Below, in pieces: positions 1 through 18,874 of a stretch of DNA of 33,012 nt (position 1 is the first letter of the stretch; every line of letters starts with the position of its first letter). A program made the translations under genes and the position numbers. This DNA comes from a virus. The stretch covers positions 1 to 33,012 of IMG/VR virus record IMGVR_UViG_3300042463_000702; one strand, 5' to 3'. The notes under the pieces are model-generated. The model was not told where the DNA came from. It made no database searches and worked only from the letters and a program-made list of their open reading frames with translations.

Positions 1-74
1 TATATGAGTCCATGTCGCTGAACTTGTTCTTGGAGATATTTACAATATTCCGTACAGCGACATGGACTCATATA
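1..74. repeat. Perfect 20-bp inverted repeat at the window edge
   Basis: Bases 1-20 are the exact reverse complement of bases 55-74, with a 34-base loop (21-54). The match starts at the very first base of the window and stops at base 20. The right arm lies inside well-conserved connector coding sequence, so the left arm looks like a copied-back version of it. The simplest reading is a fold-back artefact at a contig end. A real hairpin terminus or inversion junction is less likely. It matters because the in-frame stop at 5-7 that appears to limit the first gene lies in the suspect arm. Confidence 0.7.
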
Positions 75-1183
75 CGGCGGTAACTACTGACGGTTTGTCG
101 CCTCAGTCGCGTCTCCGCCTCCGTGGACGCCCTATCACAAAGATCCACACCATTAGAAATCGCTCTGGAGTTGTGGTAGACCCAAGCAGCTACTACCTCG
201 TAGACCACTCTACTATTCAAGCAGTGGCGGGCGCAAGATGGACTCCCTGTGACATCGAAATTACATATAGCTATGGCACTGAACCACCAACGCTTGGTAA
301 GCTCGCAGCACGCACGCTTGCATTTGAGTTCTGCAAATTGTGGAATAACGATGACGATTGTCAGCTTCCACAGCGCATTACTTCTGTTTCTCGCCAAGGT
401 GTTTCGTACACAATCTTAGACAGTCAAGAGTTTATTGATGATCTTCGCACAGGTTTGTACGTAGTAGACATGTTCCTCAAGTCTGTCAACCCAGACAAGG
501 CTCGAGCAAAGGCTCGTGTGTTTACGCCTGACGTTCCTCGCGCTCGCAGATACACTGTCAAGCCGCTTAAATTGGCGGCTAGCGACATGGACCTTGACAT
601 TACGCCTAATGGAACTGGCGTTGTTGACGTTGCGCTTGAAGATATCAATGCTGCGTTCTTGGTACAAGAACTTGGCTGGAGTCCATATATTACAGTTCGC
701 AATTACTCGGAAAATACGTCAGTTACACTTGACAATGTTGTTGAAACCGCCGACCCAACGCCAGCGGCAATTACTTTAACGCACAAGTCCTTAACTAATA
801 ACGTTGCTTTAATGACTACAGCAACTACTCACGGTCTTGTGGCTGGAGCGTCTATTGTCGTTGTAGGTGTTGATGCCACATTTAATGGCACATACACTGT
901 AACAAATGCGCCAACACCAACTACATTTATGTATGAAAAAACTGCAGCTAACGTTGCCTCTGCCGTAACAACAGGCACAGTGACTGCTGCTACTGATGAT
1001 CGTATGACAATTACTGTTAGCTACGAAGACGTGCTCAAGACCATCGGAAAAATTGACCCTGGTACATATGATCTTTATGCGCAAAGAACGTCTGGCGCGA
1101 CCGTAGAAACGGTATATATTGCATCAGGTAACGTTCGAGTTGCTCTGGCGTCATCCGTCATCAACGCTTATACATTAGGTTAG
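62..1183 (+). CDS. Head-tail connector with C-terminal Ig-like structural modules (5' end probably missing)
   Basis: Structural protein expected at the portal-tail interface. Residues about 1-160 match the actinophage connector layout: a 'YYLVDH' strand, 'PCDIEITYSYGTEPP', 'GKLAARTLAFEF', 'LPQRITSVSRQGVSYTILD' and 'TGLYVVDMFLKSVNP'. I know this series from head-tail adaptor proteins. Residues about 165-373 are an added beta-rich region containing a 66-residue module (bases 785-982) that recurs in two tail proteins of this window. ATG 62 is the first usable start. However, sensible reading frame continues upstream through about base 23 (LVLGDIYNIPYSD), and family members have a longer N-terminus, so the true start is probably lost in the fold-back at 1-20. 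Connectors do not usually carry such a C-terminal extension. Confidence 0.75.
   Translation: MDSYTAVTTDGLSPQSRLRLRGRPITKIHTIRNRSGVVVDPSSYYLVDHSTIQAVAGARWTPCDIEITYSYGTEPPTLGKLAARTLAFEFCKLWNNDDDCQLPQRITSVSRQGVSYTILDSQEFIDDLRTGLYVVDMFLKSVNPDKARAKARVFTPDVPRARRYTVKPLKLAASDMDLDITPNGTGVVDVALEDINAAFLVQELGWSPYITVRNYSENTSVTLDNVVETADPTPAAITLTHKSLTNNVALMTTATTHGLVAGASIVVVGVDATFNGTYTVTNAPTPTTFMYEKTAANVASAVTTGTVTAATDDRMTITVSYEDVLKTIGKIDPGTYDLYAQRTSGATVETVYIASGNVRVALASSVINAYTLG
785..982 (+). repeat. Shared 66-residue structural module, copy 1 (connector)
   Basis: Encodes 'SLTNNVALM', then 'VGVDATFNGTYTVTNAP', then 'YEKTAANVASAV'. The same pattern of a leading LTxNVA strand, a VDxxFNGxYxVT core and a (Y)xxTAxNV end recurs in the Dit and in the Gp37-like protein. 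I read it as a small beta-sandwich carried as a cassette. Confidence 0.75.
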
Positions 1184-1187
1184 TTTT

Positions 1188-1691
1188 ATGCCAATTGTTG
1201 ATATTTCAAACGTCTCTGAAGACATTACAAACGTACTTGACTTTCTTGACAATGTTCTTCAGCGTATCGTTGATACGTTTGAAGCCAACCATGTGCCTAT
1301 CCCGTCTAGACAGTATTGGACAGTTGGTCAAACAGCAATTGACTGTGAGCAACTTGTAGTTACTCTAGTGCAAATCTATCTTGGCCCTCCAGGTGATCAA
1401 GCGTCTTCTCCTCAGCGTTGTAACATGCCAAGAACTGCAGTAATGACAGTTACTATTTCTAGAGCAATCCCAACCGTTGGGCAAAATGGCAGACCGCCAA
1501 CTGCAGACAAGATCAATGAAGCAGCAAGAGTATCTGCAATTGACGCGTACGTTTTAATGCAAGCGTTAAACGCTCTTGACGTTTGGGACGATGGCGGGTT
1601 TGGCGTTGGCGTTATTGCGACGGCAGACATCCCAGAACCTGAAGGTGGATTTCAGTCAGTTAATCTTCAACTAACGATGGCGATCCCCTGA
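1188..1691 (+). CDS. Tail terminator / neck protein
   Basis: 167 residues. The protein should cap the tail tube and join it to the head-tail connector. The run 'RQYWTVGQTAIDCEQLVVTL' followed by 'QIYLGPPGDQASSPQRCNMP' is the hallmark of the actinophage family found directly after the connector gene. 'PEGGFQSVNLQLTMAIP' closes the protein as expected, and the length is normal. The gene begins 4 bases after the connector stop, and its own stop overlaps the next start (TGATG), so the two are translationally coupled. Confidence 0.75.
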   Translation: MPIVDISNVSEDITNVLDFLDNVLQRIVDTFEANHVPIPSRQYWTVGQTAIDCEQLVVTLVQIYLGPPGDQASSPQRCNMPRTAVMTVTISRAIPTVGQNGRPPTADKINEAARVSAIDAYVLMQALNALDVWDDGGFGVGVIATADIPEPEGGFQSVNLQLTMAIP

Positions 1692-2104
1692 TGGCTAGTG
1701 GTATGCAAGCTAGAGTGTCAAAAATTGACGTTGACATAAACTACGCTAAGCTTAGAAGAATGCTAAATGCCCCTACTGGTGAAGTTGGCAGACTGATGCG
1801 CGGAAGAGCTGAAAAAGCAAGAGTGCACGCAAGAGCTCAAGTTGGCAAAAGGACAGGCGCGCTGGCAATGTCTATTTATATTGACCAATCTGCCCAGGCT
1901 GCTGGGCAAAAGCTTACGATTGGTTCTAATTTGCGCTACGCGGCTTTTGTGCATGAAGGCACCAGACCTCACATGATTACTCCACGAGGCGGAGAAATTC
2001 TTAGATTTACGCAAAAAGGTAGAGTGGTGTATTCTCGAGCAGTAATGCATCCTGGGACAAAGCCAAATAGGTTCCTAACAGACTCTGCCTACTTGTTATT
2101 ATAG
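1691..2104 (+). CDS. HK97 gp10-like tail completion protein
   Basis: 137 residues. This is a putative minor tail or neck component of the HK97-gp10 type. Diagnostic pieces are 'KRTGALAMSIYI', 'GSNLRYAAFVHEGTRPHMI' and the Gly-rich 'PRGGEILRF', which follow the usual order: a helical basic N-terminus, then a 'Y.xxVxxGTxP' loop, then a closing strand. It starts at the overlapping TGATG and is followed by a 59-base gap with no gene. In related phages the major tail protein would come next, but it does not here. Confidence 0.75.
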   Translation: MASGMQARVSKIDVDINYAKLRRMLNAPTGEVGRLMRGRAEKARVHARAQVGKRTGALAMSIYIDQSAQAAGQKLTIGSNLRYAAFVHEGTRPHMITPRGGEILRFTQKGRVVYSRAVMHPGTKPNRFLTDSAYLLL

Positions 2105-2163
2105 AAACGACGCACATTGCGTCAACGTGACATCACGACCAATACACAGTATGGAGAAATAAG

Positions 2164-2517
2164 ATGGCAAGATTTAAGGACTTTGGAGCCGGTGCAAGTA
2201 ACAGCACGCCGGCTGAAAAAATTACCTTTAAGCTTCATGACGAAGAATTTGAATGTATCCCAGAAATCCCAGGTAAGACAATTCTTGACTTGGTATCTAA
2301 GTCAAGTGGAGACGACCCAGGCGAATCCGCAGGCGTTGTAACTGGCTTTTTCAAGACTGTTCTTACGCCAGAAAGTAACGAGCGTTTTGACGTTCTTGCT
2401 GCTGACCCAGTACGAATTGTTACAATGGAAACATTGAGCAACATCATCGAGTGGTTGGTCGAGCAGTACACTGACCGCCCTACGGAGCGGCCAGAAGCTT
2501 CCTCGATTGGGGAATAG
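2164..2517 (+). CDS. Tail assembly chaperone, upstream part (gpG-like)
   Basis: 117 residues. It resembles the first half of the G/GT chaperone pair, which holds the tape measure protein during tail assembly. It has a short beta-rich head ('KITFKLHDEEFECIPEIPGK'), then a helical part ending in 'IVTMETLSNIIEWLVEQYTD', then a disordered Glu/Pro/Ser tail. Size and position just before the tape measure gene fit the family. The stop TAG at 2515-2517 lies inside a stretch where the -1 frame is already open (from 2475), which sets up a fused product. Function rests mainly on context and architecture. Confidence 0.7.
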   Translation: MARFKDFGAGASNSTPAEKITFKLHDEEFECIPEIPGKTILDLVSKSSGDDPGESAGVVTGFFKTVLTPESNERFDVLAADPVRIVTMETLSNIIEWLVEQYTDRPTERPEASSIGE

Positions 2518-2897
2518 ACCTCTGGCCGTATGTTAACGGCAAAGCAATAGCATCAGGGCTAGATTTGTCTGCGCTTGGAGCGGCAGATTTAGTAGACGTT
2601 CTTCATTACTATTTTGAAGAAGACGCCAATGTTTCTTCTGGCGAGCAGGCAGAAGCACGCGATGCTATGCGCACAACAATTTACCGTGACTTGTATGGAA
2701 AAACGTACAGGTACGGCTCAAGCAAGTCTCAAACTACCGACTTTAGTGATCTTGACGATCCAATGGGCGGCGATATGCCAATGCCTATGGACCCTATGCA
2801 AAAGACATTCTCGTCTAAGCCATTTGTACCAGCCACTGATTTTGAAGAAGGCGCGTATAAACCCTTCGGCAACGTGCTTGACGCTCCACTAGGCTAG
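2475..2897 (+). CDS. Tail assembly chaperone, frameshift extension (gpT-like)
   Basis: This frame is open from 2475, right after a TGA at 2472-2474. It overlaps the end of the upstream chaperone and reads 'RSFLDWGIDLWPYVNGKAIA', then 'LVDVLHYYFEED'. That sequence looks like real protein well upstream of the first possible start (TTG 2565), and the frame holds no ATG or GTG between 2475 and 2565. Expression by -1 frameshifting from the gpG-like gene is therefore the best reading, giving a fused protein of about 240-245 residues. There is no canonical X-XXY-YYZ heptamer. The overlap contains C-CGC-CCT (2475-2481), where the Pro anticodon could re-pair, and a GGGGAA run (2509-2514) before the stop. 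The C-terminus is Met/Pro/Asp-rich and likely flexible. Confidence 0.65.
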   Translation, partial: PPYGAARSFLDWGIDLWPYVNGKAIASGLDLSALGAADLVDVLHYYFEEDANVSSGEQAEARDAMRTTIYRDLYGKTYRYGSSKSQTTDFSDLDDPMGGDMPMPMDPMQKTFSSKPFVPATDFEEGAYKPFGNVLDAPLG

Positions 2898-2907
2898 TCA
2901 AATACGG

Positions 2908-2913
2908 TATAAA
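2908..2913 (+). promoter_or_regulatory. Weak -10-like TATAAA upstream of the tape measure gene
   Basis: TATAAA in the 55-base gap between the chaperone and tape measure genes, 45 bases before the start. There is no good -35 at standard distance and no TG extension. It may be chance AT-richness. Confidence 0.25.
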
Positions 2914-2933
2914 ATTAAGACTGACGCAGAATG

Positions 2934-2942
2934 AAGGAGGTG
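2934..2942 (+). promoter_or_regulatory. Very strong Shine-Dalgarno site for the tape measure gene
   Basis: AAGGAGGTG is close to a full anti-16S match and lies 10 bases before ATG 2953. It is the best ribosome site I see in the window and it fixes the tape measure start. It fits the need for high expression of a long structural gene whose upstream neighbour depends on frameshifting. Confidence 0.8.
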
Positions 2943-2952
2943 AAGTAGTACA

Positions 2953-5900
2953 ATGTTTACAGGCACAGTAGGCCGCATTCGTATGGATGTGGATATTTCC
3001 ACAGCTGGCGCGATGGCAAAAATTGCGATTCTTAAGAAGTCTATTGAAAAAATGGACAATGGTCGCGGCCCTATTGGTGATTTATTCAAGTTTGACACTA
3101 AGTCATTTAAGCAACTTGCAAAAGAGTCTGATGGAGTCTACAATAGCATCAACTCGCTTGTCACAAAGAGCTACTTCTTACAGGCTGCGATTTCTGGGTT
3201 AGTTCCTGTTGTTGCCCAGTTAGCTGGTGGTCTTTTTGCTCTAGGCTCGCAGGCAGCTGCTGCAGGCCCTGCACTAATTGTGCTGCCTGGCATTCTAAGT
3301 GCGTTAATGCAGGCGGGTATTACAGCTAAACTTGCGCTTGGTGGCGTAGGTAAAGCTATGGGAGAGCTAGGCAAAGCAAAAACTGGTGCCGTTGATCAAA
3401 TGCCAGCAAAGCTTGAAGCGTTCCGCGGCGCGCAAGAACGAGTTAGACGTGCGCAAGAAGCGCTAAATAGAGCGTATAGAGAAGCAGCCGAACGAATTCA
3501 ACAACTTGGTTTCGACACTGAAGACGCCGCTATTGGCCAAGAAAAAGCTGCGCTTGCTCTTCAAGACGCAAGAGAAACGCTTGCTCGAGTTCAAGATCTT
3601 CCGCCAAACTCTAGAGCGCGCAAAGAGGCAGAGCTTGCGTTTAAGGAGGCAGACCTTAACTACAGAAGAGCAATTGACACAAGTAGTGATCTTGCGGAAG
3701 AGCAAAAGCGCGTCACTAAAGACGGAACTCTTAACGCTGAGCAGCAGGTCGAACAGTCAGACGAAGTGCTTAATGCTATTTATGAGCAAAAAAGAGCTGT
3801 TGAGGCTTTAGCAAAAGCACAGGCAGATCTTAAAAAAGGTAATAGTGGCGGCGGCGCGCTTACAGAATTTAATAAACTTTCTAAAGCAGCGCAAGAATTT
3901 GCAAAGTATCTTGTAACTCTTAAACCAGAAATTAAAAAACTCAAGGACGCAGCAGGCGAAGAACTTTTTGGCCCACTTGAAGCTTCTATTCAAAATATTG
4001 TTGACAAATTATTTCCAAGACTGGTGCCGATTCTTCAAGAAACTGGCAGAGCGCTTGGCCAGACTGCGCTTGACTTTTCAAAGACTGTTACGGAAGCTAA
4101 AAACCTTGCTTCGTTTGAAAAAATTGGTAAAACAAACGTCTACGTTACAGAGCGATTTGGAAAAGTTCTAGGAAACCTGTACACAGTTGTTGTGCAAGTG
4201 CTTGATGCAGCAGGGCCGCTTATCAAGCGATTTACTGACTGGGTTGTTGTTCTCACCAAGGGTTGGGGCGAATCATCGAAGGCAGCAAATGAAACTGGAA
4301 AACTTGGCAGAGTCTTTGAGTACGCCGGCGACGTAGCATCGCAGCTTGGCGATATCATTGGCGATCTTATGGGTGCGCTAATGAACATGGGTCGCGCAGC
4401 ATCTGGCCCTGGTAGTGGCGGCGAAATGATTTTTGACGCCATGGAAAAGTCAGCTAAAAAGTTTAGAGACTTTACAAAAAGAGTATCTGAAGACGGCACA
4501 TTAGAAGATTACTTTAAGCAATCAGCAACTGGCTTTTTGCAGGTTTTTGGCATTCTTGGCAAGATCATCAAGATTGTTCTTAAGTCTGCTACACAACCAG
4601 GAACAAAGGAGTTCTTAGATAGCATTTCTAGAGCCGTAGATCACTTAGGCACAGCGTTTGAGCATCTTGCTGGAAGTGCACCAGCTTTTGGCAGATTCAT
4701 TGAAGGATTTGCTCGAATGATGAAGGCGTTCACTGAGTCTGGCAGCATTATTGCGTTTTTTAGTATTTTAACTGCAGCTGTAAATATAACGGCTGCAATC
4801 TTTGAAAATGAATTTGTAGCATCGGTCTTTAAAACACTCGCTGTAATGCACGGTGCAAAACTTGCGTTTATTGCAATTAAAAGCGTGCTGGTGCTTTTAG
4901 GCAAGTACATACTTGGAATGCTCAGGACAGCTCTTAGACCGTTTATCTTTATATTTACAAAGTTAACTGGTGTGCTAGGCGTAACAATTGGGCCTGCGTT
5001 GTTAATAACTGCGGCCATTGCCGCGCTTGTAGTCGTTCTCATCGGTGCGTATAAAAAGAGCGAAAAGTTTAGAAAATCATTAGCTGATCTCGTAAAAGTG
5101 ACATTTGAAGCTCTTAAAAAAGCTGCTGCAGAGATTAAAGAAGCTTTTAACGCTGCTTTTGGCGGAATGTCTAAGAGCGGTTTTAGCTTTGGCAAAATGT
5201 TTAAGGGCATTGGAGACTTCTTAGCTAAGTACATCGTGCCTATCTTTAAGTTTTTGCTACCGTTTGCAATTAGCATAGTGAAGTACGCTATTATTGGTGT
5301 AATAAAAATAGTCGCAGGGTTAGTGCGCATATTTATTGGCGTATTTAAGATGATTAAAGCAATCATCAAAGTCTTTACTGGAGACTGGGGTGAAGCATGG
5401 GCGCTATTAAAAGATGGCGTAGGCGACATCTTCAAAGGCATTTGGGAAGTAATTAAAGGATTTTTTGTCAGCGCTCCTGGGATGTTACGCGAACTTGCGT
5501 CTGGAGCTTTTGGCTCGGTTGGCGTTACCATCTACAACGCGATTGCTTGGCCATTCAAAGCGCTAGGCAAAATTATTGGTTTTACCTGGAACAAAATTAT
5601 TAAGCCAGTCTTTGAAGCAATTGGCACAGTTATTTCTTTTGTGTGGAACAATGTTCTTAAGCCAGTTTTTGGTTTGATTGCGAAAGCATTTGGCGCAATC
5701 GCCGGGCCTGCTGCTGCTGGTATTGGAAAAGTCTTTAGTCTTATCGGCAGCTCACTTGGCAAAATCGGCGGCGCAGGTCTCAAGGGTCTTTCTGTTGCAT
5801 TTACTGCAATTGCTGGTGCGGCTGGGGTTTTGTGGAAAGTTCTTAAGCCAGTGCTTGGCGTCTTGCTTAAAATTACCAAAATTATTGGCATTGTGCTTTA

Positions 5901-7815
5901 CGTTGCTGCGCTTGTCACATTCACTGCTATTGGTCTTCTCATTGCAGGCATTTGGAGAACTCTTAAAAGAGTTGGTGTTGCCATTTGGCAAAACCTTATT
6001 TACCCATTTTCAAAAGTAGCACTGCCTGTTGTTACTAATGTGTTTAAAGTTATTTCCACCGTTATTCGCAAAACTTTTGGTATTCTCAAGATCGCTGTCA
6101 AGGTGTTTATTGGCGTATTTTACTACTCATTTAAGGGAATTTCTTGGCTTATAAAGAAGATATTTAGCGTTGAAATGCTCAATATCATTAAAAAAGTTTT
6201 CAACGTTATTATCAACATTGTTACGGGCGCGTTTGACATCTTTAAAAATGTTTTCAAGGTTTTTGGCGCAGTATTTAAGACTGTATTTGACGTACTAGTT
6301 GTCGTATTTAAGACTGTATTTAGCGTGGTACAAAAAGTCTTTAGTGTTGTATGGAACGTGATACTAAATGCTGTACCTATACTACTAAGAGTAGCTACAA
6401 CAGTATTTAACGGACTTCTTACTGTGTTTTCTGCTATTTGGACTGGTATTAAGACTGTTTTTGAGAATATTTGGCCCGTTATCTGGGGTGCTATTTCATG
6501 GGCATGGAACAATGTTATCAAGCCAGTGTTTGGTCTAATCGGTGCAGCCTTTGCATTTATGTGGAATGGCATTAAGACTGTTTTTGAGAATGTTTGGCCA
6601 CTGATTTGGGGCGGAATCCAGTGGGCCTGGAACAACGTAATCAAGCCAGTGTTTGGATTGATAAAGACTATTTTCTCGGCAGTATGGAACGGTATCAAAG
6701 CCGTATTTGACACAGTGTGGCCACTAATCTGGGGTGCTATTAGCTGGGCATGGAATAACGTCATTAAGCCAGTGTTTGGTTTAATAGGCACTGTCTTCAA
6801 GTTTATGTGGAGAGGTATCAAAGCCGTATTTGACACAGTGTGGCCTTTGATCTGGGGTGCTATTTCATGGGCATGGAACAATGTTATCAAGCCAGTATTT
6901 GGTTTGATAGGCACGGTATTCTCTGCAATATGGGCTGGCATCAAAGCTGCGTTTGATTTAGTGTGGCCACTAATCTGGGGTGCTATTAGCTGGGCATGGA
7001 ATAACGTCATTAAGCCAGTGTTTAAAACACTTGGTGCTGTATTCTCTACAATATGGAACGGTATTAAGACCGCGTTTGATCTTGTTTGGCCTGTTATTTG
7101 GGGAGCAATTAGCTGGGCTTGGGACAATGTAATTAAGCCAACCTTTGACAAGATTGGCGAAGTCTTTGGAACAGTCTGGGACGGCGTTAAGACAGCGTTC
7201 CACAGGGTGTGGGACGGCATCAAGTTGATGTTTACAAACTTCCCAGAATTCCTTAAGCAGGTTTGGAATAAAGCTCTTGATTTTGTTGATGGGTTCCTTG
7301 ACAAGATTATCGGCGGTTTTAAGCAAATTCCAAACTTAATTGGTAAAGTATTTAGTGGCATTATTGGCATATTCAAAAGCGGTGTCAACTTAATCATTAA
7401 AGGATTCAATAAGACGCTTGGCGGAAAAAGCTTTACTCTCCCAGGCTTCCTTGGCGGTGGCACGTTTGGCTTTGGCAAAATTGATTTAATTGGTGGAGAA
7501 GACACGACTTCATTTGAAGACGTTGTAACTGGTGGCTATCGTAAAATTCCAAAGCTTGCCCTCGGCGGCACAGTTATGCCACGCGCTGGCGGTACTCTTG
7601 TAAACGTCGCAGAAGCAGGGCGCGCAGAAAGAATTGAACCTCTTGATAGTGATGGCCTTTCAAAGCGAGACAGAGCAATGATCACACTGCTTGCCGGCGG
7701 TAGCACTGGTGGAATTACCATTAATGTTCATCCTTCGCCTGGAATGAATGAAGTTGAGTTGGCAGCACTTGTCAATCGTCAACTTGCGTTTGAGCTTAGG
7801 AAGGGCGCAGCATAG
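2953..7815 (+). CDS. Tape measure protein
   Basis: 1620 residues, by far the largest gene, directly after the chaperone pair. The protein sets tail length and is threaded through the tail tube. The N-terminal ~350 residues are Ala/Lys/Glu/Gln-rich helices likely to form coiled coils. Several long hydrophobic stretches follow (around residues 75-130, 600-700 and 790-830), then many aromatic amphipathic segments. Between about residues 1163 and 1409 lies a 41-residue repeat with a 'WAWNNVIKPVF' core. The C-terminus has the usual 'GGTLVNVAEAGRAERIEPLD' style ending. I see no lysozyme or peptidase domain. At the accepted ~1.5 angstroms per residue the tail would be roughly 240 nm, which is an inference. 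The start is fixed by the strong SD at 2934. Confidence 0.92.
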   Translation: MFTGTVGRIRMDVDISTAGAMAKIAILKKSIEKMDNGRGPIGDLFKFDTKSFKQLAKESDGVYNSINSLVTKSYFLQAAISGLVPVVAQLAGGLFALGSQAAAAGPALIVLPGILSALMQAGITAKLALGGVGKAMGELGKAKTGAVDQMPAKLEAFRGAQERVRRAQEALNRAYREAAERIQQLGFDTEDAAIGQEKAALALQDARETLARVQDLPPNSRARKEAELAFKEADLNYRRAIDTSSDLAEEQKRVTKDGTLNAEQQVEQSDEVLNAIYEQKRAVEALAKAQADLKKGNSGGGALTEFNKLSKAAQEFAKYLVTLKPEIKKLKDAAGEELFGPLEASIQNIVDKLFPRLVPILQETGRALGQTALDFSKTVTEAKNLASFEKIGKTNVYVTERFGKVLGNLYTVVVQVLDAAGPLIKRFTDWVVVLTKGWGESSKAANETGKLGRVFEYAGDVASQLGDIIGDLMGALMNMGRAASGPGSGGEMIFDAMEKSAKKFRDFTKRVSEDGTLEDYFKQSATGFLQVFGILGKIIKIVLKSATQPGTKEFLDSISRAVDHLGTAFEHLAGSAPAFGRFIEGFARMMKAFTESGSIIAFFSILTAAVNITAAIFENEFVASVFKTLAVMHGAKLAFIAIKSVLVLLGKYILGMLRTALRPFIFIFTKLTGVLGVTIGPALLITAAIAALVVVLIGAYKKSEKFRKSLADLVKVTFEALKKAAAEIKEAFNAAFGGMSKSGFSFGKMFKGIGDFLAKYIVPIFKFLLPFAISIVKYAIIGVIKIVAGLVRIFIGVFKMIKAIIKVFTGDWGEAWALLKDGVGDIFKGIWEVIKGFFVSAPGMLRELASGAFGSVGVTIYNAIAWPFKALGKIIGFTWNKIIKPVFEAIGTVISFVWNNVLKPVFGLIAKAFGAIAGPAAAGIGKVFSLIGSSLGKIGGAGLKGLSVAFTAIAGAAGVLWKVLKPVLGVLLKITKIIGIVLYVAALVTFTAIGLLIAGIWRTLKRVGVAIWQNLIYPFSKVALPVVTNVFKVISTVIRKTFGILKIAVKVFIGVFYYSFKGISWLIKKIFSVEMLNIIKKVFNVIINIVTGAFDIFKNVFKVFGAVFKTVFDVLVVVFKTVFSVVQKVFSVVWNVILNAVPILLRVATTVFNGLLTVFSAIWTGIKTVFENIWPVIWGAISWAWNNVIKPVFGLIGAAFAFMWNGIKTVFENVWPLIWGGIQWAWNNVIKPVFGLIKTIFSAVWNGIKAVFDTVWPLIWGAISWAWNNVIKPVFGLIGTVFKFMWRGIKAVFDTVWPLIWGAISWAWNNVIKPVFGLIGTVFSAIWAGIKAAFDLVWPLIWGAISWAWNNVIKPVFKTLGAVFSTIWNGIKTAFDLVWPVIWGAISWAWDNVIKPTFDKIGEVFGTVWDGVKTAFHRVWDGIKLMFTNFPEFLKQVWNKALDFVDGFLDKIIGGFKQIPNLIGKVFSGIIGIFKSGVNLIIKGFNKTLGGKSFTLPGFLGGGTFGFGKIDLIGGEDTTSFEDVVTGGYRKIPKLALGGTVMPRAGGTLVNVAEAGRAERIEPLDSDGLSKRDRAMITLLAGGSTGGITINVHPSPGMNEVELAALVNRQLAFELRKGAA
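6439..7179 (+). repeat. Six tandem 123-bp (41-residue) repeats inside the tape measure gene
   Basis: The 'WxGIK' Trp codon recurs at 6439, 6562, 6685, 6808, 6931, 7054 and 7177, always exactly 123 bases apart. Each unit encodes a 'W.GIK..F...WP.IWG.I.WAW.NVIKP.F' pattern. Units 3 and 5 share almost identical DNA (6721-6777 and 6967-7023), and units 1 and 4 share another version, so copies have been exchanged or duplicated recently. Degenerate relatives occur earlier, around 5541-5700 ('WNKIIKPVF', 'WNNVLKPVF'). Confidence 0.95.
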
Positions 7816-7856
7816 GTTATGATTAGTATTTATAAGAATCTGAAACGGAGATTTCG

Positions 7857-10100
7857 GTGGCATATTTAATTGACGGTACGACATCGCTACCGGTAAATGG
7901 TGACTCAGGTTGGGGCACTACACTAAACGCGGCGATCAATGCTATTGACTCGCGGTTTACCTGGACAGCTGGGCAAGCTGTAGCGAACCGAGCTAACGCG
8001 GCTAACCTTTCAGGCACAGCTCTTGCGTCAAACGTGATTGCGTCTAACTTGACGTCTCTTGGCACTCTGTCTTCTTTGACAGTTGGTGGCAACGTCACAG
8101 TTGTTGGCAACCTCACTGTCACAGGCGAAACGCTGACAATCAACACTACAACATTGAATGTTTCGGACAACATCATTGTTCTAAACAACGATGTCACTGG
8201 GTCTCCAACTGAAAATGCTGGCATTGAGATTGAGCGTGGCACTTCCACAAACGTGCTTATCCGCTGGAATGAAACCTCAGATACTTGGGAGTTCACTACC
8301 GACGGCAGCACATACAAGACTTTCAACGCCGCCGCAGATATCTCTGGCACAACACTTGCATCAAACGTTGTTACCTCGAGTTTGACTAGTGTCGGTACAA
8401 TCGGGACGGGCGTATGGAACGGTTCTGTTGTTGCGGGTCAGTACGGTGGCACAGGAGTGGCAAACACCGGCAAGACAATTACTCTTGGTGGAAACGTTAC
8501 AACCTCTGGTGCGTTCAACTTAACGTTTACGCTAGGTGCAACAACAGCTCTTGTTCTACCGAGCTCTGGCACACTTGCTACACTTGCTGGGTCTGAGTCG
8601 CTGACAAACAAGAAGCTTGGCAGTCTTACATCCAACGGTATTGTTACAACATCTAGCGGTGACGGTACTCTTAGCGTTACTGCAACTACAGGTTCTGGCA
8701 ACGTCGTGCTGGCAACAAGCCCTGCTGTTTCGACAAGCATTACGACCGCAAGTGCAACATTTGCATTGCTAAATACTGGCGCGACAACAGTCAACTTTGC
8801 TGGTGCTGCAACATCAATTAGCATCGGCGCGCTGACTGGCACAACAACTGTTAATAATAGTCTTACAGTCACAGGCGACTTGGTAGTTAACGGCACAACA
8901 ACCACCTTGAACGCAACAACACTGACTGTTGACGACAAGAACATCGAGCTTGGTTCGGTAGCTACTCCTTCAGATATTACCGCAGACGGCGGTGGTATTA
9001 CATTGCGCGGAGCAACTGATAAGACACTCAACTGGGTGAGTTCAACAACAGCGTGGACATCATCCGAAGACTTTAACTTGCTGACAGGCAAGGTCTATGA
9101 AATCAACGGCGTGACTGTGCTTAGCTCAACAGGGCTTGGTTCTGGTGTAACTGGGTCTTCATTGACTAGCGTCGGGACAATTGGTTCTGGTACATGGCAG
9201 GGTAACGCTGTTGGGCTTGCGTACGGCGGCACAGGTAAAACAACTGCGCCAGGCGCAATGGCAAACTTGATTGGCTATACTGCAACTGCCACGGCAGGGA
9301 CAACAACAACTCTTACAAATGCTAGTTCGTATTACCAACAGTTCACAGGATCTACTACTCAATCTGTGCAGCTCCCAGTTACAAGCACTTTACAGACAGG
9401 CTGGTCATTCCATATTGTTAACAACAGCACCGGAGTTGTAACTGTACAGTCATCTGGCTTAAACACTGTCATTGAAGTACCAGCCGGGTCAACAGCAATG
9501 GTAACGTGCGTCGGCACAACATTAACAACAGCTGCTGACTGGGAATCCGGTCTTACAGACTTTTCAACGTACACTGGCTCTGGAAGCGTAGTACTTGCAA
9601 CGTCGCCAACACTGGCAACACCAACAGTTACTACAAGTATTGCAACTGGCAGTTCAACATTTGCATTGGTAAACACGACTGCAACAACAGTTAACTTTGC
9701 AGGTGCTGCTACAACATTGAGTGTTGGCGCTTCCACTGGAACTACAACAATCAATAACGGACTCACCGTTAGCGGTACAACAGTTCTTGGCCCAACGTCT
9801 ATTACTCAGCAGTCCAGCGACTATACTCTTCTTGTTGGCGATCAAGGCACTGTTATTGAAATGACAAATAGCACTGATGCAACAGTAACAGTTCCGCCAA
9901 ACACGACAGCATTGCCGATTGGCACGCAGATTACCGTGGTAAGAAACGGTGCTGGTAAAGTTTTGTTTGCAGCAGGCGCAGGGGTAGTAATTCGCTCTGA
10001 TAGCTCGAAGTTGTACTTGTCTACTCAGTACTCTGCTGGCACGCTTATCAAACGCGCTGCTGCTGAGTGGTACTTGATTGGTAACCTTTCAGCGTCATGA
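7857..10100 (+). CDS. Repetitive tail fibre protein
   Basis: 747 residues, rich in Thr, Ser, Val, Gly and Asn with almost no Cys or Trp-rich core, as in beta-helical or trimeric fibres. It is built of repeats. The block 'GSGNVVLATSP' to 'TGTTT.NN.LTV' occurs twice, the 'SLTSVGTIG' plus 'W.G..V...YGGTG' unit occurs twice, and 'LTV.GETLTINTTTLNV' has a related copy 'LVVNGTTTTLNATTLTV'. Such units are typical of phage fibres from aquatic phages. The N-terminal 'LIDGTTSLPVNGDSGWGTTLNAAI' probably anchors it to the baseplate. The start is GTG 7857, the only start after an in-frame TAA at 7833, with a GGAG site at 7847. Its stop overlaps the next start. The role is probably host recognition. Confidence 0.75.
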   Translation: MAYLIDGTTSLPVNGDSGWGTTLNAAINAIDSRFTWTAGQAVANRANAANLSGTALASNVIASNLTSLGTLSSLTVGGNVTVVGNLTVTGETLTINTTTLNVSDNIIVLNNDVTGSPTENAGIEIERGTSTNVLIRWNETSDTWEFTTDGSTYKTFNAAADISGTTLASNVVTSSLTSVGTIGTGVWNGSVVAGQYGGTGVANTGKTITLGGNVTTSGAFNLTFTLGATTALVLPSSGTLATLAGSESLTNKKLGSLTSNGIVTTSSGDGTLSVTATTGSGNVVLATSPAVSTSITTASATFALLNTGATTVNFAGAATSISIGALTGTTTVNNSLTVTGDLVVNGTTTTLNATTLTVDDKNIELGSVATPSDITADGGGITLRGATDKTLNWVSSTTAWTSSEDFNLLTGKVYEINGVTVLSSTGLGSGVTGSSLTSVGTIGSGTWQGNAVGLAYGGTGKTTAPGAMANLIGYTATATAGTTTTLTNASSYYQQFTGSTTQSVQLPVTSTLQTGWSFHIVNNSTGVVTVQSSGLNTVIEVPAGSTAMVTCVGTTLTTAADWESGLTDFSTYTGSGSVVLATSPTLATPTVTTSIATGSSTFALVNTTATTVNFAGAATTLSVGASTGTTTINNGLTVSGTTVLGPTSITQQSSDYTLLVGDQGTVIEMTNSTDATVTVPPNTTALPIGTQITVVRNGAGKVLFAAGAGVVIRSDSSKLYLSTQYSAGTLIKRAAAEWYLIGNLSAS

Positions 10101-12022
10101 CCCGTAATCTTGTTGGTGTTGCGTCTAGTAGTGGCGGCGGTCCTGGCACGCCAGGCTTTGTCACAAACTTACAAGTACAGTTAGCTTTTATTGACCCTAA
10201 CTATGTCGTTCAGGCAACGTGGAGCGCGCCTGTCTCAAACGGTGGCAGCGCACTTACTGACTACGTTGTGCAATACTCCAGCGATGACGGATCTAACTGG
10301 ACCACATTTGCCGATGGCACGAGTACTAGCGCATCCGCCACAATCACAGGGTTGGCTGGCAATCAAACTTACGTTTTTCGTGTTGCCGCAGTTAATGCTA
10401 TTGGAGCTGGGCCTTACTGCCCTAAGTCCTCTTCAGTTACTATCTCAGGCGTTGCTCCAGGGGCGCCAACTGGAGTATCGGGTACTCGAGGGAATACGCA
10501 AGTTGACCTCACTTGGACCGCTCCTGGTGACACTGGTGGCCTTTTACTGACCGACTATGCGATTCAGTATTCGTCAAATAGCGGTGGCTCGTGGACTACA
10601 TTTTCAGACGGAACTTCAACTAATACCTACGCAACTGTCACTGGTCTCACCAATGGCACAAGTTACATCTTTAGGGTAGCAGCGGTCAATAGCATCGGTC
10701 AAGGCAACTACTCGACAGCATCATCTGCTGTAATTCCAGCAACTACTCCGTCGGCGCCAACCTCTCTTTCTTCAACCGCTGGCGACCAGCAACTGACAAT
10801 CGCATTCACTGCTGGCTCAAATGGTGGCGATGCAATTACGAACTATAAGTACGCACTATCTACTAATGGCGGATCATCGTACGGCGCATGGACTGCGTTT
10901 AGCCCGACTGATACGACAACCCCTGTAACAATTACTGGTCTCACAAACGGTACTGCATATCACGTTAAGTTGCGTGCTGTTAACACAGTCGGTGATGGCG
11001 CTGAGTCTGCTGCAGTTTCAACTAACACAACTCCTCGCGGCTTGCCAATTTCCGTCACAAGAACTGTTGACAGATTTAATCAAAACCGTGCAACGTTCAA
11101 TGCAACCTGGACTGCTAACGGTGCCACAATTACTGCAACGTCTTTTGAGTACGACACAAATTCAAACTTTTCTACCGCTCTTACAGCTACAGGAACTGGC
11201 ACTACAGATGCGTACGCCAATGTCACTGGGCTAAACCCAAACACACTGTACTATGTAAGAGCTAAAGCTACAAACGCAGCAGGTACACAGACAAGTACAG
11301 CAGTTACTTTTTCAACTTGGGGTTTTATTGAAACAGTTCTTACGCAGTCTAACGGTAACAGAACGCTTCAAACAATTACTCCTCGTGGCGGTTCGCGTGT
11401 CAACCCTGTCATTGCAGAAGTAGTTGTCTTTGGCGGCGGCGGAGATGCTGGGCTATATGGCGCCGCTGGCGGTGGCGGTGGGTACAAAAGTAGCTCTGAA
11501 ATAGAAGTAACTGATGGCAGCGGGTATGTTTCATGGACAATTGGCGCTGCAGGTAACGACGGAGCTGGCGGAACAACTACGATATCTGGTCTGTCGGGTG
11601 GCAGCTTTTCAGCTACTGGTGGAGGCAAAGGTAGTGACAATCACCCAGTTGGCGCCAGTTCATCTGGCAGCAGTGGCAGTGGGACAAATACTGCGCAAGG
11701 CGCAGGCGCAACATCGTATACTGTATTAGATAAAACTGAGTCCTGGGGGTACGGCGGCGGTGGCGGCGCAGGCGGCGCAGGCGGCAATGGAAGCTCTTCT
11801 ATAGGTGAAACAGCTACTGCTACTGGCGGCGCTGGCGGAGTTGGAGTTGTTGTTTTTACAGTAGAAGGTGGCGCAGGTGGTGGCGGCGCTGCGGCTCCTT
11901 ATGGCACAATTAGTGGCGCCGGTGCTACTGGCACGTACAGTACATACGGTAGAGGCGCTCGAGGCGACAGCGGGCTTGCCGCTACTGCTGGCGTTGTAAG
12001 ATTTAAGATCTATGGAGTGTAA
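10097..12022 (+). CDS. Fibronectin type III / glycine-rich tail adhesin
   Basis: 641 residues. Three clear Fn3 domains lie at about 18-115, 118-212 and 216-312, each with a 'LTDYVVQYSS' or similar strand, a '.TITGL..GT.Y.FRVAAVN..G.G' hallmark and a 'P.AP' linker. A more divergent fourth lies at about 314-405. Fn3-1 and Fn3-2 are close duplicates. Residues 420-641 are very Gly-rich with a 'VVVFGGGGDAG' style start, like the glycine-rich receptor-binding domains of phage fibres and adhesins. It starts at an ATGA overlap with the fibre gene, so the two are co-translated. It is likely displayed on the virion and binds carbohydrate or a receptor. Confidence 0.75.
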   Translation: MTRNLVGVASSSGGGPGTPGFVTNLQVQLAFIDPNYVVQATWSAPVSNGGSALTDYVVQYSSDDGSNWTTFADGTSTSASATITGLAGNQTYVFRVAAVNAIGAGPYCPKSSSVTISGVAPGAPTGVSGTRGNTQVDLTWTAPGDTGGLLLTDYAIQYSSNSGGSWTTFSDGTSTNTYATVTGLTNGTSYIFRVAAVNSIGQGNYSTASSAVIPATTPSAPTSLSSTAGDQQLTIAFTAGSNGGDAITNYKYALSTNGGSSYGAWTAFSPTDTTTPVTITGLTNGTAYHVKLRAVNTVGDGAESAAVSTNTTPRGLPISVTRTVDRFNQNRATFNATWTANGATITATSFEYDTNSNFSTALTATGTGTTDAYANVTGLNPNTLYYVRAKATNAAGTQTSTAVTFSTWGFIETVLTQSNGNRTLQTITPRGGSRVNPVIAEVVVFGGGGDAGLYGAAGGGGGYKSSSEIEVTDGSGYVSWTIGAAGNDGAGGTTTISGLSGGSFSATGGGKGSDNHPVGASSSGSSGSGTNTAQGAGATSYTVLDKTESWGYGGGGGAGGAGGNGSSSIGETATATGGAGGVGVVVFTVEGGAGGGGAAAPYGTISGAGATGTYSTYGRGARGDSGLAATAGVVRFKIYGV

Positions 12023-12025
12023 ATA

Positions 12026-13150
12026 ATGGAAGTGCAGATTTTTGATCTTGAGCTAATAAAACTAAAAGAACCTAGCACGGGCTACTACATGCTTCAAGTT
12101 GCCGGCAAGCATTCAGATTTTGTTGAACTGACTATGAATACAGTAAATGGCGAAGTGCCATTTGAAGACTTTTCAGCATTTCGAATGAACGATGGCAAAG
12201 TTCTTATTGCTATTCATTTAATGAACAAAGTATTTGCAGACTACAGTTTGACAGCGACAGATACTTTGGGAAACACTGAGATTATAAACACTCAAACATA
12301 TGAAAGACTGTACCAATACTACAATCTGCCAGCGAGTGAAAATAAAGGATTTTTTATTTTCGAGAACTCTGTGCCCGTGCCACCAGACGGGTACGGTTGG
12401 AGATGCGACAATAATAGATTTGGTCCACAGTTTTTTATGAAAAACGATGTAGAGTATGATCCATTGTTTGCAGACCTGAGCGAAATTATTGTGTATGAGC
12501 CAGTACTCTCAGTTAGTGGAGTTGGCCACATCATCTACGTTAATGGGACACGCGACGCAGAGCTTGAAGATTTTCATCTCGAAGAGTACGAGCTCCCTAG
12601 AGCAACAAGAACTCTGCACGAGCTGTTTAAGCTTATCACCGAGTGGGCTGACACTTCATTAAGCCCATGGAATAATGAAGAGACTATTGCGCTAAAGGCG
12701 CAAGAATTTCTGCAAAAAATGAACTTTTCATCAGAGTTTATTGCTGACGTTAGGCAGAATCAAATTGATATGCAGGTAGTGAAATACCTTAAAGGCGACG
12801 TTAACGCTCGAGCACGCTCAAGCGCGCCTGTGCCTCTGTCTTTAGTTGCAGGTGAAGAGCTCAAAAAGAAAGTAAGTCATCTAAGTCTTTCAAATATTCT
12901 TGCTCTTTTTGACAATACAGTTGATGATATTGACAGTGTTATTGCATTTGAAGAAAAAGCGGTGTCAAGAAGGCAAAACGCACTAATCAATGAGCTTGAG
13001 CTTTCTTTGGAAAAGTTCACTACAGCAGACATCAATACAGTTGTTCAAGCAATGCAAGACAAGACAAAGGCCAAAATACGTCCGTCGATTTTGATTTATA
13101 TCACTACGCTTGCTGTCCGCAGAGAGATCCTAGACAATGCCATTAACTAA
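12026..13150 (+). CDS. Unrecognised protein between fibre and Dit genes
   Basis: 374 residues with no family I recognise. The N-terminal ~200 residues look beta-rich ('LIKLKEPSTGYYMLQVAG', 'VPVPPDGYGWRCDNN'). The C-terminal ~180 residues are helical and charged, with Glu/Lys patterns. It has no signal peptide or membrane segment. Its Thr/Gly-poor composition contrasts with the fibre genes before it. It starts 3 bases after the adhesin stop and overlaps the Dit gene by 14 bases, so it belongs to the tail operon. A virion component, a fibre chaperone or an assembly factor are all possible, and the mostly helical C-terminus would suit a chaperone. That is inference from position. Confidence 0.6.
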   Translation: MEVQIFDLELIKLKEPSTGYYMLQVAGKHSDFVELTMNTVNGEVPFEDFSAFRMNDGKVLIAIHLMNKVFADYSLTATDTLGNTEIINTQTYERLYQYYNLPASENKGFFIFENSVPVPPDGYGWRCDNNRFGPQFFMKNDVEYDPLFADLSEIIVYEPVLSVSGVGHIIYVNGTRDAELEDFHLEEYELPRATRTLHELFKLITEWADTSLSPWNNEETIALKAQEFLQKMNFSSEFIADVRQNQIDMQVVKYLKGDVNARARSSAPVPLSLVAGEELKKKVSHLSLSNILALFDNTVDDIDSVIAFEEKAVSRRQNALINELELSLEKFTTADINTVVQAMQDKTKAKIRPSILIYITTLAVRREILDNAIN

Positions 13151-14729
13151 TACACTTGATGAAAGATACTTAGTCTACGGAGAGAACGGCTACGGCGCGT
13201 ACCTTTACCCAGACGAAAACTCACAGGATAACGAAAATGCGATTACTCGTCGCGCGCTAACTCCTGTACCGCAGCCGCACATTACGGGTATGAAGCTCAA
13301 AGCGGATGTTTCACTTGGCGATCTTGTCTTAAATACTATTGACAGTAATGGTGTTGTTTGGGTGTGCACTGACATTGAAGGCTGGTGGGGTCACCCAGAT
13401 CCTGATATTCCTGATGTTACTCGTGGTTGGCGCGACGGCTCATACGATGCTCGTGGTCGCTGGCAGGCTCGACAGCTTACGTTAAATGGTTCATTGTTGC
13501 CGCATGACCCATCGTTGTTGCCTGCTGCTAGAGACACTCTTATTCGTGCAACTAACTTGGTCTACACAGGCGCATGGCTAAAGACACAAGAAAACCCGAC
13601 AAGAGCATCGTATGTTCGACTAAGCGGTAGGCCAAACATTGCTACTGTTAACGCTCGAGGACGTACTGACTTTTCAATTGGTCTTCGCGCTGCGGACCCT
13701 ATTAAGTATTCATGGAATGAATCTGACCCAGATGGCTATGATCTTGCAACAACTGCTGCAAAAAAGCTTGGCACAGTAAATGTAATTAGCTACCCGACAT
13801 TTGATCAACGCATAGCTGCCGGGTTGCCTGGAGATCTTTACCCTAACGGTGCGCCAATTCCTTTAGTAAAAGGAAACATTACTCTCACAAACAGACCGTT
13901 AGTTGCAAATTACGGTGTTGTAAGCACGCTGCTTGTGTACCGCTATAATGATGGATCTAATGAAGTTCTTATTCCGTTGATTGTTGGTGGCGCTATTGTT
14001 TCATCAGCAACTGCAATTTCTACCTACACTTCTACTGGGCAGCATCTTGGCAAGTTTGCGAGTGGAAACTGGCAAGAAGCTGACACATACGCCGCTAATC
14101 TTCAGACTGTTCAAGATGACTGGTTAGAAGAAGTTAACTATACGTATGACGGTCAAACTGGCTCCGTTGTTGTAAACAACGTTGGTAACGTAAATGTATC
14201 TATGTTCTTGGAAGTTACAGGCCCTATTGTTGGCGATGCGACTATTGTTAATGAGACTACTGGCGAAGTATTGGCGATTATTAGCTCGCTTCGCAGCGCA
14301 GAAGCTAGAACAGTCACTACAAAGATTTTGACAAGTAATGTTGCAACATTGACATTTTCGTCTAATCACACGATTGTTGTTGGCGACTTCGTAACAATTT
14401 CTGGTGTAGATTCAATTTTTAACGGCGAGTATGAAGTTACAAATGTTCCAGCTTCTAATCAAATTAGTTACCTTGTGACTGCAACAAATGTCCCGTCAAC
14501 AGCCGCCACAGGCTCAGCTGTTCGAGCCGCTGACGTTCTTGAGATTGATACCTATGAGCGAGAAGTTGCGTACAACGGTTTGGTAGTTGGCTCAAGAGTA
14601 AAAATTGACACTCTCACAGACTGGCTAGTTCTTGCTGACGGTGAGAATACGATTGTGTTTACAGATGAAGGTAATACACAGTCGACAGCGTCTCTTAAAG
14701 TGTACTACAGATCCGGGTGGATCGGTTAG
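13137..14729 (+). CDS. Distal tail protein (Dit-like)
   Basis: 530 residues. It should form the ring joining the tail tube to the baseplate. Residues about 40-205 carry the actinophage Dit signature: 'VWVCTDIEGWWGHPDPD', 'GWRDGSYDARGRWQARQLTL', 'RDTLIRATNL' and 'DFSIGLRAADPIKYSW'. The C-terminal half is an extension with two cassettes shared with the next gene, one at about residues 222-335 and one at about 396-462. Ordinary family members are roughly 280-320 residues long, so the extension is notable. It overlaps the upstream gene by 14 bases. Confidence 0.82.
   Translation: MPLTNTLDERYLVYGENGYGAYLYPDENSQDNENAITRRALTPVPQPHITGMKLKADVSLGDLVLNTIDSNGVVWVCTDIEGWWGHPDPDIPDVTRGWRDGSYDARGRWQARQLTLNGSLLPHDPSLLPAARDTLIRATNLVYTGAWLKTQENPTRASYVRLSGRPNIATVNARGRTDFSIGLRAADPIKYSWNESDPDGYDLATTAAKKLGTVNVISYPTFDQRIAAGLPGDLYPNGAPIPLVKGNITLTNRPLVANYGVVSTLLVYRYNDGSNEVLIPLIVGGAIVSSATAISTYTSTGQHLGKFASGNWQEADTYAANLQTVQDDWLEEVNYTYDGQTGSVVVNNVGNVNVSMFLEVTGPIVGDATIVNETTGEVLAIISSLRSAEARTVTTKILTSNVATLTFSSNHTIVVGDFVTISGVDSIFNGEYEVTNVPASNQISYLVTATNVPSTAATGSAVRAADVLEIDTYEREVAYNGLVVGSRVKIDTLTDWLVLADGENTIVFTDEGNTQSTASLKVYYRSGWIG
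13800..14141 (+). repeat. Shared ~115-residue module, copy A (Dit)
   Basis: Encodes 'AAGLPGDLYPNG', 'GNITLTNRPLV', 'YNDGSNEVLIPLIVGG' and 'STGQHLGKFASGNW'. All four blocks recur in the same order in the Gp37-like protein at 16075-16419. The copies are clearly homologous at protein level but diverged in DNA. Confidence 0.85.
14322..14522 (+). repeat. Shared 66-residue structural module, copy 2 (Dit)
   Basis: Encodes 'LTSNVATLTF', 'ISGVDSIFNGEYEVTNVP' and 'VTATNVPSTAATG', matching the modules at 785-982 and 15475-15675 block for block. Confidence 0.8.
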
Positions 14730-14735
14730 TATAAA
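14730..14735 (+). promoter_or_regulatory. Weak -10-like TATAAA before the Gp37-like gene
   Basis: TATAAA immediately after the Dit stop, 34 bases before ATG 14764, followed by AACGAC (14744-14749) and a GGAG ribosome site. The spacing is like the better promoter candidates, but there is no TG extension and no clear -35. Confidence 0.3.
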
Positions 14736-14763
14736 TGTATCGTAACGACGTGGAGATTTCAAG

Positions 14764-17244: not shown

Positions 17245-18319
17245 TCTAAGAAGAAGTAAGCGCACAGTTGGTAAAAGAATTGTGGACATTGACCGTCGTG
17301 TATCTAGACTGCAGCGCACCCCACCAGCACGAAGAATCGGGCGAGGCGTAATTGCAGCGTCAAACATTGCGCAAAATGCTGTAAGCTATCCGCAGATAGC
17401 TCCTGGAGTCATTACTGATATTTCAGGTGCGCAAGCTACCGCAGATGGAAAAAACACTATTTTTTATACTCCTAGTGTGCCAACCTCTACCAGAATCGAC
17501 GACATTTGGTTTGACACAGATGATGACCATAAGCTGTATCGTGCAAAGTCGGTAGGTGCAAATGCAATTGGCGTAGGTAAGTGGGAGCTGGCTGTAGTTA
17601 ACGCCAGCAACTTAACAGTTGGCGAGCTTGATGCTAACCGGGTACTTGTCTCAAACCTTGACGCCGGCAAAATTACTGTTGGAACTCTTAGCGGCCGTCG
17701 AGTTACTTGCACCGAAACGTTTGTAAGCGAGCTAGGCATTACAAGAACAAGCGTCGCAGAGCTGCTAGCAAACGGCTCAATAAGTTCAAACTATACGTAC
17801 GTTGACGGTGTCAATTCTTTAAACTACTATACCAATATCGTTCTTAATAAATTGACAGATCAAGGATCTATAACTTGTGAAGGAACTGCCACCACAAATA
17901 ATCCAGCAGAAGTAATGCAGACAAAAATACTGCCCGGGTACGTTTCAGTGGTGCAGCTATGGAACACCGTAGGCCGTACAATGACCCCCACTGGCGAGGG
18001 GCCTATATCGGACGCTAGACTTAAAGAGAATGTAGTTAATCTATCTGAGTCAGTAGACTTTACTGAAATTATTAACAATTTACGCCCAGTAGAGTTTAAC
18101 TTTATCAAAGACAAAAATAAAGAAGTGCAACATGGCTTTATAGCACAAGAGGTGTTTGATGTCTACCCAAGAGCCGCTATGCAAGGTGGTGAAGATCCGC
18201 AAGAAAAACCGTGGAGTGTATATTCATCGAATCTAATACCTGTTTTGGTTGGTGCACTGCAACAGGCTTTTGCTAAAATTAATGATCTTGAGACTCGTCT
18301 AGCGGCGCTTGAAAATTGA
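17234..18319 (+). CDS. Minor tail protein with C-terminal S74 intramolecular chaperone
   Basis: 361 residues. The N-terminus is basic, then comes a linker with the tail-protein phrase 'RIDDIWFDTDDDHKLYRAK', then a repetitive beta part ('NLTVGELDANRVLVSNLDAGKI'). Residues 259-361 form a peptidase S74 / intramolecular chaperone domain: 'ISDARLKENVVNL', 'LRPVEFNFI', 'HGFIAQEVFDVYP', and a C-terminal coiled coil ('LQQAFAKINDLETRLAALE'). In this family the domain trimerises the fibre and then cuts itself off in front of the Ser of SDxRLK, so the expected cleavage is I258|S259. The start is GTG 17234, overlapping the previous stop. It is the last gene of the tail block. Confidence 0.85.
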   Translation: MASNLRRSKRTVGKRIVDIDRRVSRLQRTPPARRIGRGVIAASNIAQNAVSYPQIAPGVITDISGAQATADGKNTIFYTPSVPTSTRIDDIWFDTDDDHKLYRAKSVGANAIGVGKWELAVVNASNLTVGELDANRVLVSNLDAGKITVGTLSGRRVTCTETFVSELGITRTSVAELLANGSISSNYTYVDGVNSLNYYTNIVLNKLTDQGSITCEGTATTNNPAEVMQTKILPGYVSVVQLWNTVGRTMTPTGEGPISDARLKENVVNLSESVDFTEIINNLRPVEFNFIKDKNKEVQHGFIAQEVFDVYPRAAMQGGEDPQEKPWSVYSSNLIPVLVGALQQAFAKINDLETRLAALEN

Positions 18320-18331
18320 CAGTTCTAAGGT

Positions 18332-18349
18332 AACCATTGAAAAACCATT
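18332..18349 (+). promoter_or_regulatory. Tandem AACCATT repeat, possible operator
   Basis: AACCATT at 18332-18338 and again at 18343-18349, 11 bases apart (one helical turn), just upstream of the extended -10 at 18353. This arrangement suits cooperative binding of a regulator, but two 7-mers can occur by chance. Confidence 0.3.
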
Positions 18350-18352
18350 CCG

Positions 18353-18361
18353 TGATACTAT
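18353..18361 (+). promoter_or_regulatory. Extended -10 promoter candidate at the tail/metabolism boundary
   Basis: TGATACTAT in the 78-base gap between the last tail gene and the first gene of the second block, 42 bases from TACTAT to ATG 18398. A TTGAAA lies at 18337 but only 13 bases away, so the TG extension is the main support. Confidence 0.45.
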
Positions 18362-18397
18362 TTATTAAAGCACAGATTTCGCAGAAATGACAGAAAC

Positions 18398-18868: not shown

Positions 18869-18874
18869 TATAAT
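18866..18874 (+). promoter_or_regulatory. Extended -10 promoter with consensus TATAAT
   Basis: TGATATAAT is a perfect extended -10. It overlaps the TGA stop of the previous gene, and ATG 18901 follows 32 bases after the start of TATAAT. AACGAC (18895-18900) directly precedes the start codon, so no classic Shine-Dalgarno is obvious. It would drive the nucleotide metabolism operon. Confidence 0.55.

Follow-up and report, generated by a model that had tools for sequence, protein, structure and literature searches.

Tape measure proteins with tandem units marked by aromatic residues, in which units are duplicated and lost, were described by Belcaid et al. (2011; PMC3271669). Among the Bacillus prophages treated there, two carry four copies of a 44-residue block and another carries three (PMC3271669). 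Aromatic repeats at 11 and 18 residues are found in the tape measures of TP901-1 and p2 (Mahony et al. 2016; PMC5099701); the 40-residue repeat of p2 is read as 11-11-18 (PMC5099701; the pattern also appears in PMC3271669), and such repeats were suggested to ease the duplication and deletion of parts of the ruler (Mahony et al. 2016; PMC5099701). The subject here is a tandem array of six 41-residue units within the tape measure gene of a virus known from sequence alone, IMG/VR record IMGVR_UViG_3300042463_000702, which was analysed over its whole length of 33,012 bases (the window).

The array resembles the type of Belcaid et al. (2011; PMC3271669), with its 11-residue W/F units, in that tandem units are marked by aromatic residues and relatives differ by whole units. 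In contrast to the Bacillus 44-residue block of that paper, the unit has 41 residues with tryptophans spaced 11-11-19, and most members of the family lack it; the nearest named relative of the window is a predicted Actinomycetia phage rather than a Bacillus prophage. From the repeats of TP901-1 and p2 (PMC5099701) it differs in the phages and sequences concerned, in length and in that same spacing. In the portions of the open-licence literature available, no description of the 41-residue unit was found. The array is a well-supported new example of a principle, the duplication and loss of tape measure units, that has been in print since 2011. It is highly probable that the array constitutes a higher-order repeat within the ruler part of the tape measure of a long-tailed phage, and that its units have been duplicated, lost and partly overwritten by recombination.

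A 41-residue unit repeated in register

The gene and the repeats within it are as follows.

2953-7815, + strand: gene for the tail length tape measure protein, 1620 residues (PHROG matches and alignment with phage DSL-LC01)
6439-7176, + strand: tandem array of six 41-residue (123-bp) units (Tandem Repeats Finder (TRF), self-comparison and a unit hidden Markov model (HMM))
7177-7212, + strand: partial seventh unit, its first 12 residues, weak (7.6 bits by the unit HMM)
5575-5700, + strand: two overlapping half-units (model positions 19-41), 19 residues apart (18.7 and 24.3 bits by the unit HMM)

The six units follow one another in frame, without insertion or deletion and with a period of exactly 123 bp, and the unit HMM finds six full domains at a spacing of 41. 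The DNA is 66-72% identical to itself at offsets of 123, 246, 369, 492 and 615 and at most 40.3% identical at every other offset from 20 to 619; the 123-bp periodicity is far beyond chance. TRF scores were 492 for the period of 123 and 657 and 620 for a period of 246. A preliminary description of this DNA had spoken of an exact 123-bp tandem repeat at 6439-7179. The exactness applies to the period and the location is right, with six units, but the copies themselves have diverged, to pairwise identities of 65-81% in DNA and 63-90% in protein, and the end had been placed three bases too far. Over whole units, 3 and 4 are closest in DNA (81%), followed by 3-5 (78%), 1-4 (75%) and 1-3 (74%). Since the longest exact repeat inside the array is only 64 bp, collapse of these six diverged units during assembly is unlikely; an exactly duplicated extra unit could have been collapsed, so that six is to be read as a minimum.

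Each unit has invariant tryptophans at positions 1, 12, 16, 21 and 23, phenylalanines at 8, 31 and 38, and prolines at 13 and 29. The spacing W1-W12-W23-W42 is 11-11-19, near but not identical to the published 11-11-18. The strongest hydrophobic period of the array, 3.73 residues, equals 41/11, as would be expected of a single hydrophobic stripe on a helix that makes eleven turns per unit. The unit would then be an amphipathic, probably continuous helical segment bearing a hydrophobic stripe. On the minus strand, a 460-residue open frame (6123-7505) spans the whole array in antisense and is probably a by-product of the repeat composition.

Exchange between units

The similarity between units changes along their length. 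Within codons 15-33, units 1 and 4 are 95% and units 3 and 5 are 91% identical; within codons 1-14 identity is highest for 3-4 (88%) and 1-2 (86%). The earlier statement that unit 1 is like 4 and unit 3 like 5 is therefore correct for codons 15-33 but not over the whole unit, where 3 and 4 are closest. Three tracts are shared exactly.

6481-6527, + strand: 47-bp tract in unit 1, identical to 6850-6896 in unit 4
6850-6896, + strand: 47-bp tract in unit 4, identical to 6481-6527 in unit 1
6714-6777, + strand: 64-bp tract starting in unit 3, identical to 6960-7023 in unit 5
6960-7023, + strand: 64-bp tract in unit 5, identical to 6714-6777
6691-6722, + strand, with a second copy at 6814-6845: 32-bp tract common to units 3 and 4, alone not significant (P=0.067)

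When codon order was permuted, tracts as long as the 47-bp (units 1-4) and 64-bp (units 3-5) ones were reached in none of 2000 permutations (P=0.0005 each), and among the remaining 13 pairs only units 1-2 had a P value below 0.05 (0.033). This control is lenient, since it takes no account of protein-level conservation in the middle of the unit. In a stricter control, in which codons for the same residue were compared and Trp and Met were excluded, P was 0.0034 for units 1-4 and 0.0118 for units 3-5, uncorrected for 15 pairs, and at least 0.05 for the remaining 13. The support that synonymous codons lend to the two tracts is only moderate. A test of the pairwise homoplasy index (PHI) type on 42 informative sites gave P=0.0005 with windows of 3, 5, 8 and 12 sites; it rejects one shared history of the units and so supports exchange between them. 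Exchange of segments between units, as had been proposed earlier, is thus supported by the sequences, mainly through the PHI-type test together with the two tracts. The term "recent" that had been attached to this recombination holds in a relative sense only.

Unit number among relatives

A scan based on an alignment of three sequences (best 80 of 84 relatives, at least 78 distinct loci) and a second one with the arrays as query (best 80 of 199) supplied the relatives; the second added L113-L117, with 3 or 4 units. Fifty-nine tape measures with matches to the window protein at both its ends were counted as complete; they include the window itself, count each near-identical contig and leave out cut genes and the loci L001 and L018, which repeat the window and L002. 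By the HMM, which was built from the window units and may miss strongly diverged units in relatives, 46 of the 59 have no unit, one has a single unit and twelve have at least two; the numbers seen are 0, 1, 2, 3, 6, 7, 16 and 18. Comparison among relatives had been proposed, and constancy of the unit number is refuted for the family.

In a tree of 63 units, built on 123 columns and with many forks left open, five of the six window units cluster (94/85), four of them with 98/96, as do 15 of the 18 units of L023 (99/91). Six of the seven L002 units and one unit of L031 share a weakly supported branch (83/80), and the units of L113 and L116 pair by position. Arrays thus look homogenised within some lineages and positionally stable in others.

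Differences by whole units are seen in close pairs. The proteins of L113 and L116 are 64% identical and are separated by one gap of exactly 41 residues within the array; the flanking units are orthologous by position (76% and 82% DNA identity). The second unit of L116 is 75% identical to unit 2 and 67% to unit 3 of L113, and it reads as a fusion whose front comes from unit 2 and whose back comes from unit 3. Further upstream, in other repeats, the alignment has another gap, of 40 residues. Neither gene has an exact direct repeat longer than 16 bp, which makes assembly collapse an unlikely source of the 41-residue difference.

Near-identical contigs reaching across a 41-residue array form six groups, in two of which unit number also varies. 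L020 and L021, with 4 mismatches in about 11.2 kb, differ by a stretch of exactly 123 bp that L021 lacks. In L020 the tandem copies agree exactly for 144 bp, and L019, the third member of this near-identical trio, has both as well, which points to a recent duplication or conversion; it is possible that L021 is a collapse of this exact copy. Over the 16,080 bases compared, L022 matches L023 without a mismatch but is shorter by exactly 246 bp, and at the breakpoint the homology is exact for 125 bp. However the adjacent 246-bp copies of L023 are placed, at least 12 positions distinguish them; the difference between the two contigs, if real, would favour a loss in L022. Three further contigs (L111, L112 and L084) are identical to this phage over 8.0-8.2 kb and begin or end inside the array. 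Because arrays thus disrupt assemblies, the L022/L023 pair is given little weight, and its two-unit difference may be an assembly effect. In the pair L015/L134 one gene is cut. L132 and L133, which carry another type of tape measure with another repeat spacing, are on contigs 96% identical and encode 1555 and 1612 residues, a difference of 57 that is not a multiple of 41.

The best match to the window protein in the phage collection is Actinomycetia phage DSL-LC01 (OQ999401), annotated "tape measure protein", which was assembled from a lake metagenome and has a predicted actinobacterial host (PMC10611076). The two tape measures are 43% identical and conserved in their N- and C-terminal parts, and the gene order is similar. 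That of DSL-LC01, with 1037 residues, has no 41-residue unit by the HMM and displays a weak 40-residue self-similarity (26% identity). Thirteen of the 1146 phage-collection records matched by the array were examined. Gordonia phages of the Sourvirus type and Tsukamurella phage TPA2 have tandem repeats in the tape measure that are partly recognised by the unit HMM, with a period of 46 residues compared with 41 in the window; such 46-residue repeats occur in the Sourvirus-type tape measures L096-L099 and L102-L104. The tape measure genes of Gordonia phages LittleMunchkin, BiggityBass and AnClar differ in length (5484, 5241 and 5487 bp), those of Oscar and Scarlett are 3 bp apart, and TPA2 stands alone.

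A near-DNA search of the phage collection with window positions 1-20000 gave no match, and a scan of genome contigs with the three-sequence alignment, resting on two peptide patterns, gave 411 stretches among which tblastn found no relative. Of two scans of viral contigs with DNA patterns for near-identical phages, which possibly omitted records very near the window, one returned only L003 and the other nothing. L003 is a 100% match to the window protein, but its contig stops at residue 260, short of the array. A second copy of the window's own array was not found in these scans.

Genomic setting, ruler step and alternative explanations

By its PHROG matches, its place in the gene order and its alignment with DSL-LC01, the gene at 2953-7815 is one for a tape measure protein. 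Many tape measure PHROGs are matched, best PHROG 4197 (E=9.3e-94), and also PHROG 6090 (4.2e-76); a Pfam search with the 1620-residue protein gave no family past the cut-off. Upstream are head-tail adaptor and Neck1-type genes, downstream a virion structural protein gene and then minor tail genes. The gene thus occupies the position expected of a tape measure gene, after the head-tail connector and chaperone genes and before the minor tail genes. Two open reading frames between the Neck1-type region and the tape measure gene (2164-2517 and 2614-2892) have no PHROG match; annotated chaperones occupy the equivalent place in DSL-LC01.

The gain and loss of whole units, which the preliminary description had envisaged, is borne out by L113 versus L116, by L020 versus L021 and by the range of 0 to 18 units among the 59 complete tape measures. 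Units would be added, removed and partly overwritten by unequal or annealing-type exchange between tandem copies, the likely cause being homologous recombination or single-strand annealing between them. With a period divisible by three and a self-similar unit, in-register unequal exchange at any point of a unit would preserve both the reading frame and the helix register. Each added unit would lengthen the ruler by about 5.9 nm and hence the tail. This step is transferred from TP901-1, in which deletions shorten the tail by 0.145 nm per residue removed (PMC5099701): multiplied by 41, this value yields 5.9 nm, a step of roughly 6 nm per unit.

Three adjoining genes in the window are likely to form a phage recombination set.

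25585-26544, + strand: exonuclease-like gene (PHROG 1218, E=2.5e-40)
26537-27334, + strand: Sak4-like single-strand annealing protein gene (PHROG 124, E=1.3e-33)
27331-27909, + strand: single-strand DNA binding protein (SSB)-like gene (best match PHROG 2300, unknown function, 3.2e-26; PHROG 378, SSB, 4.6e-11)

Their products could drive the turnover of units, a link to the array that we infer. Short G+C-rich tandem repeats of 18 and 15 bp lie at the end of the SSB-like gene (27769-27890). Elsewhere in the window, a nucleotide-synthesis block (18901-21408) consists of thymidylate kinase-like, thymidylate synthase and dCMP deaminase genes followed by DNA polymerase, as in DSL-LC01, and a DNA methyltransferase-like gene (31474-32739) is close to the end of the record.

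Several observations weigh against an array of helical ruler units shaped by gain, loss and exchange. An AlphaFold2 model consists of long helices and is nearly all helix, but with a mean pLDDT (predicted local distance difference test) of 40 it lends no real support. Protein length and unit number are only moderately correlated (Spearman 0.42, n=45, P=0.004, with 14 near-identical loci dropped). Grouping by phage is incomplete: of the 63 units, 40 have their nearest neighbour within their own phage by DNA and 35 by protein. Unit number is constant in four of the six groups of near-identical contigs (L026-28, L031/32, L113/114 and L116/117). Tape measure length is constant within two groups of cultured isolates, at 5865 bp in Wooper, AnarQue, CloverMinnie and MakoManhole, all with 46-residue repeats, and at 3390 bp in the Arthrobacter phages BrayBeast, Sarge and Shoya. 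In TP901-1, replacement of a repeat by alanines had no impact (PMC5099701), and by analogy the aromatic residues may matter little.

The differences in unit number between close relatives might be artefacts of short-read assembly, in which near-identical units were collapsed or dropped. The pair L022/L023, free of mismatches apart from the 246 bp and with its long homology at the breakpoint, would fit such an origin, as would the contigs that terminate inside the array and the possible collapse in L021. A false tandem copy arises in assembly much less readily than a false collapse, and the presence of the exact copy in two contigs, L019 and L020, counts against an artefact. The gap between L113 and L116 is a clean one of a single unit with no long exact repeat in either gene, so that at the family level variation in number is not mere misassembly. 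Arrays of 2, 3, 6, 7, 16 and 18 mostly diverged units are not explicable by collapse alone, and exact sharing among the window units does not go beyond the 64-bp tract. We regard assembly artefacts as an improbable explanation. Selection on codon choice or on protein sequence, instead of exchange between units, is quite improbable as the origin of the shared tracts: these fall where the protein sequence of the unit is best conserved, and the weaker significance under the same-residue control makes selection slightly likelier, but the tracts agree at synonymous positions too, where two versions alternate (units 1 and 4 versus 3 and 5), and the incompatible sites are clustered along the unit according to the PHI-type test.

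Tape measures are believed to form the channel for DNA entry (PMC5099701), and the array might chiefly be a membrane-active segment for DNA ejection, its effect on tail length being secondary. The array is rich in aromatic residues (30 W and 20 F in 246 residues), and its Wimley-White octanol sum falls to -7.9 over 19 residues, similar to that of the hydrophobic parts upstream (-7.8 and -8.5). The Kyte-Doolittle maximum, in contrast, is 1.63 in the array and 2.74 upstream, and 13 of the 14 membrane-like stretches of the protein are outside the array. Each unit combines two prolines with a helical stripe rather than a uniform hydrophobicity. The unit is not generally needed for ejection, since the HMM finds none in 46 of the 59 complete family members. 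A general role of the array in the membrane or in ejection is not supported by these comparisons, and a contribution to membrane passage or ejection is weakly supported. The suggestion in the preliminary description that the units could aid DNA ejection through a membrane is thus weakly supported, in view of the relatives without units and the membrane-like stretches elsewhere, even with an octanol value comparable to that upstream; we consider a chiefly membrane-active array very improbable.

For a ruler array with units gained, lost and exchanged, a further step can be imagined, namely that the phage's own recombination proteins hold the array in constant turnover, such that one population spans a range of tail lengths in steps of one unit. 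We think this highly doubtful; if true, the in-register 41-residue design would be a built-in device for length variation and not a by-product of the repeat. The rise of a tail-tube ring is about 4 nm, and two units (82 residues, about 12 nm) would equal about three rings. The array adds a phage family, represented mostly by metagenome contigs, that allows a comparison of rulers with 0 to 18 units. Natural pairs that differ by exactly one unit are useful for testing tail length against the ruler, and they could show whether any tail length is allowed or only whole tail rings.

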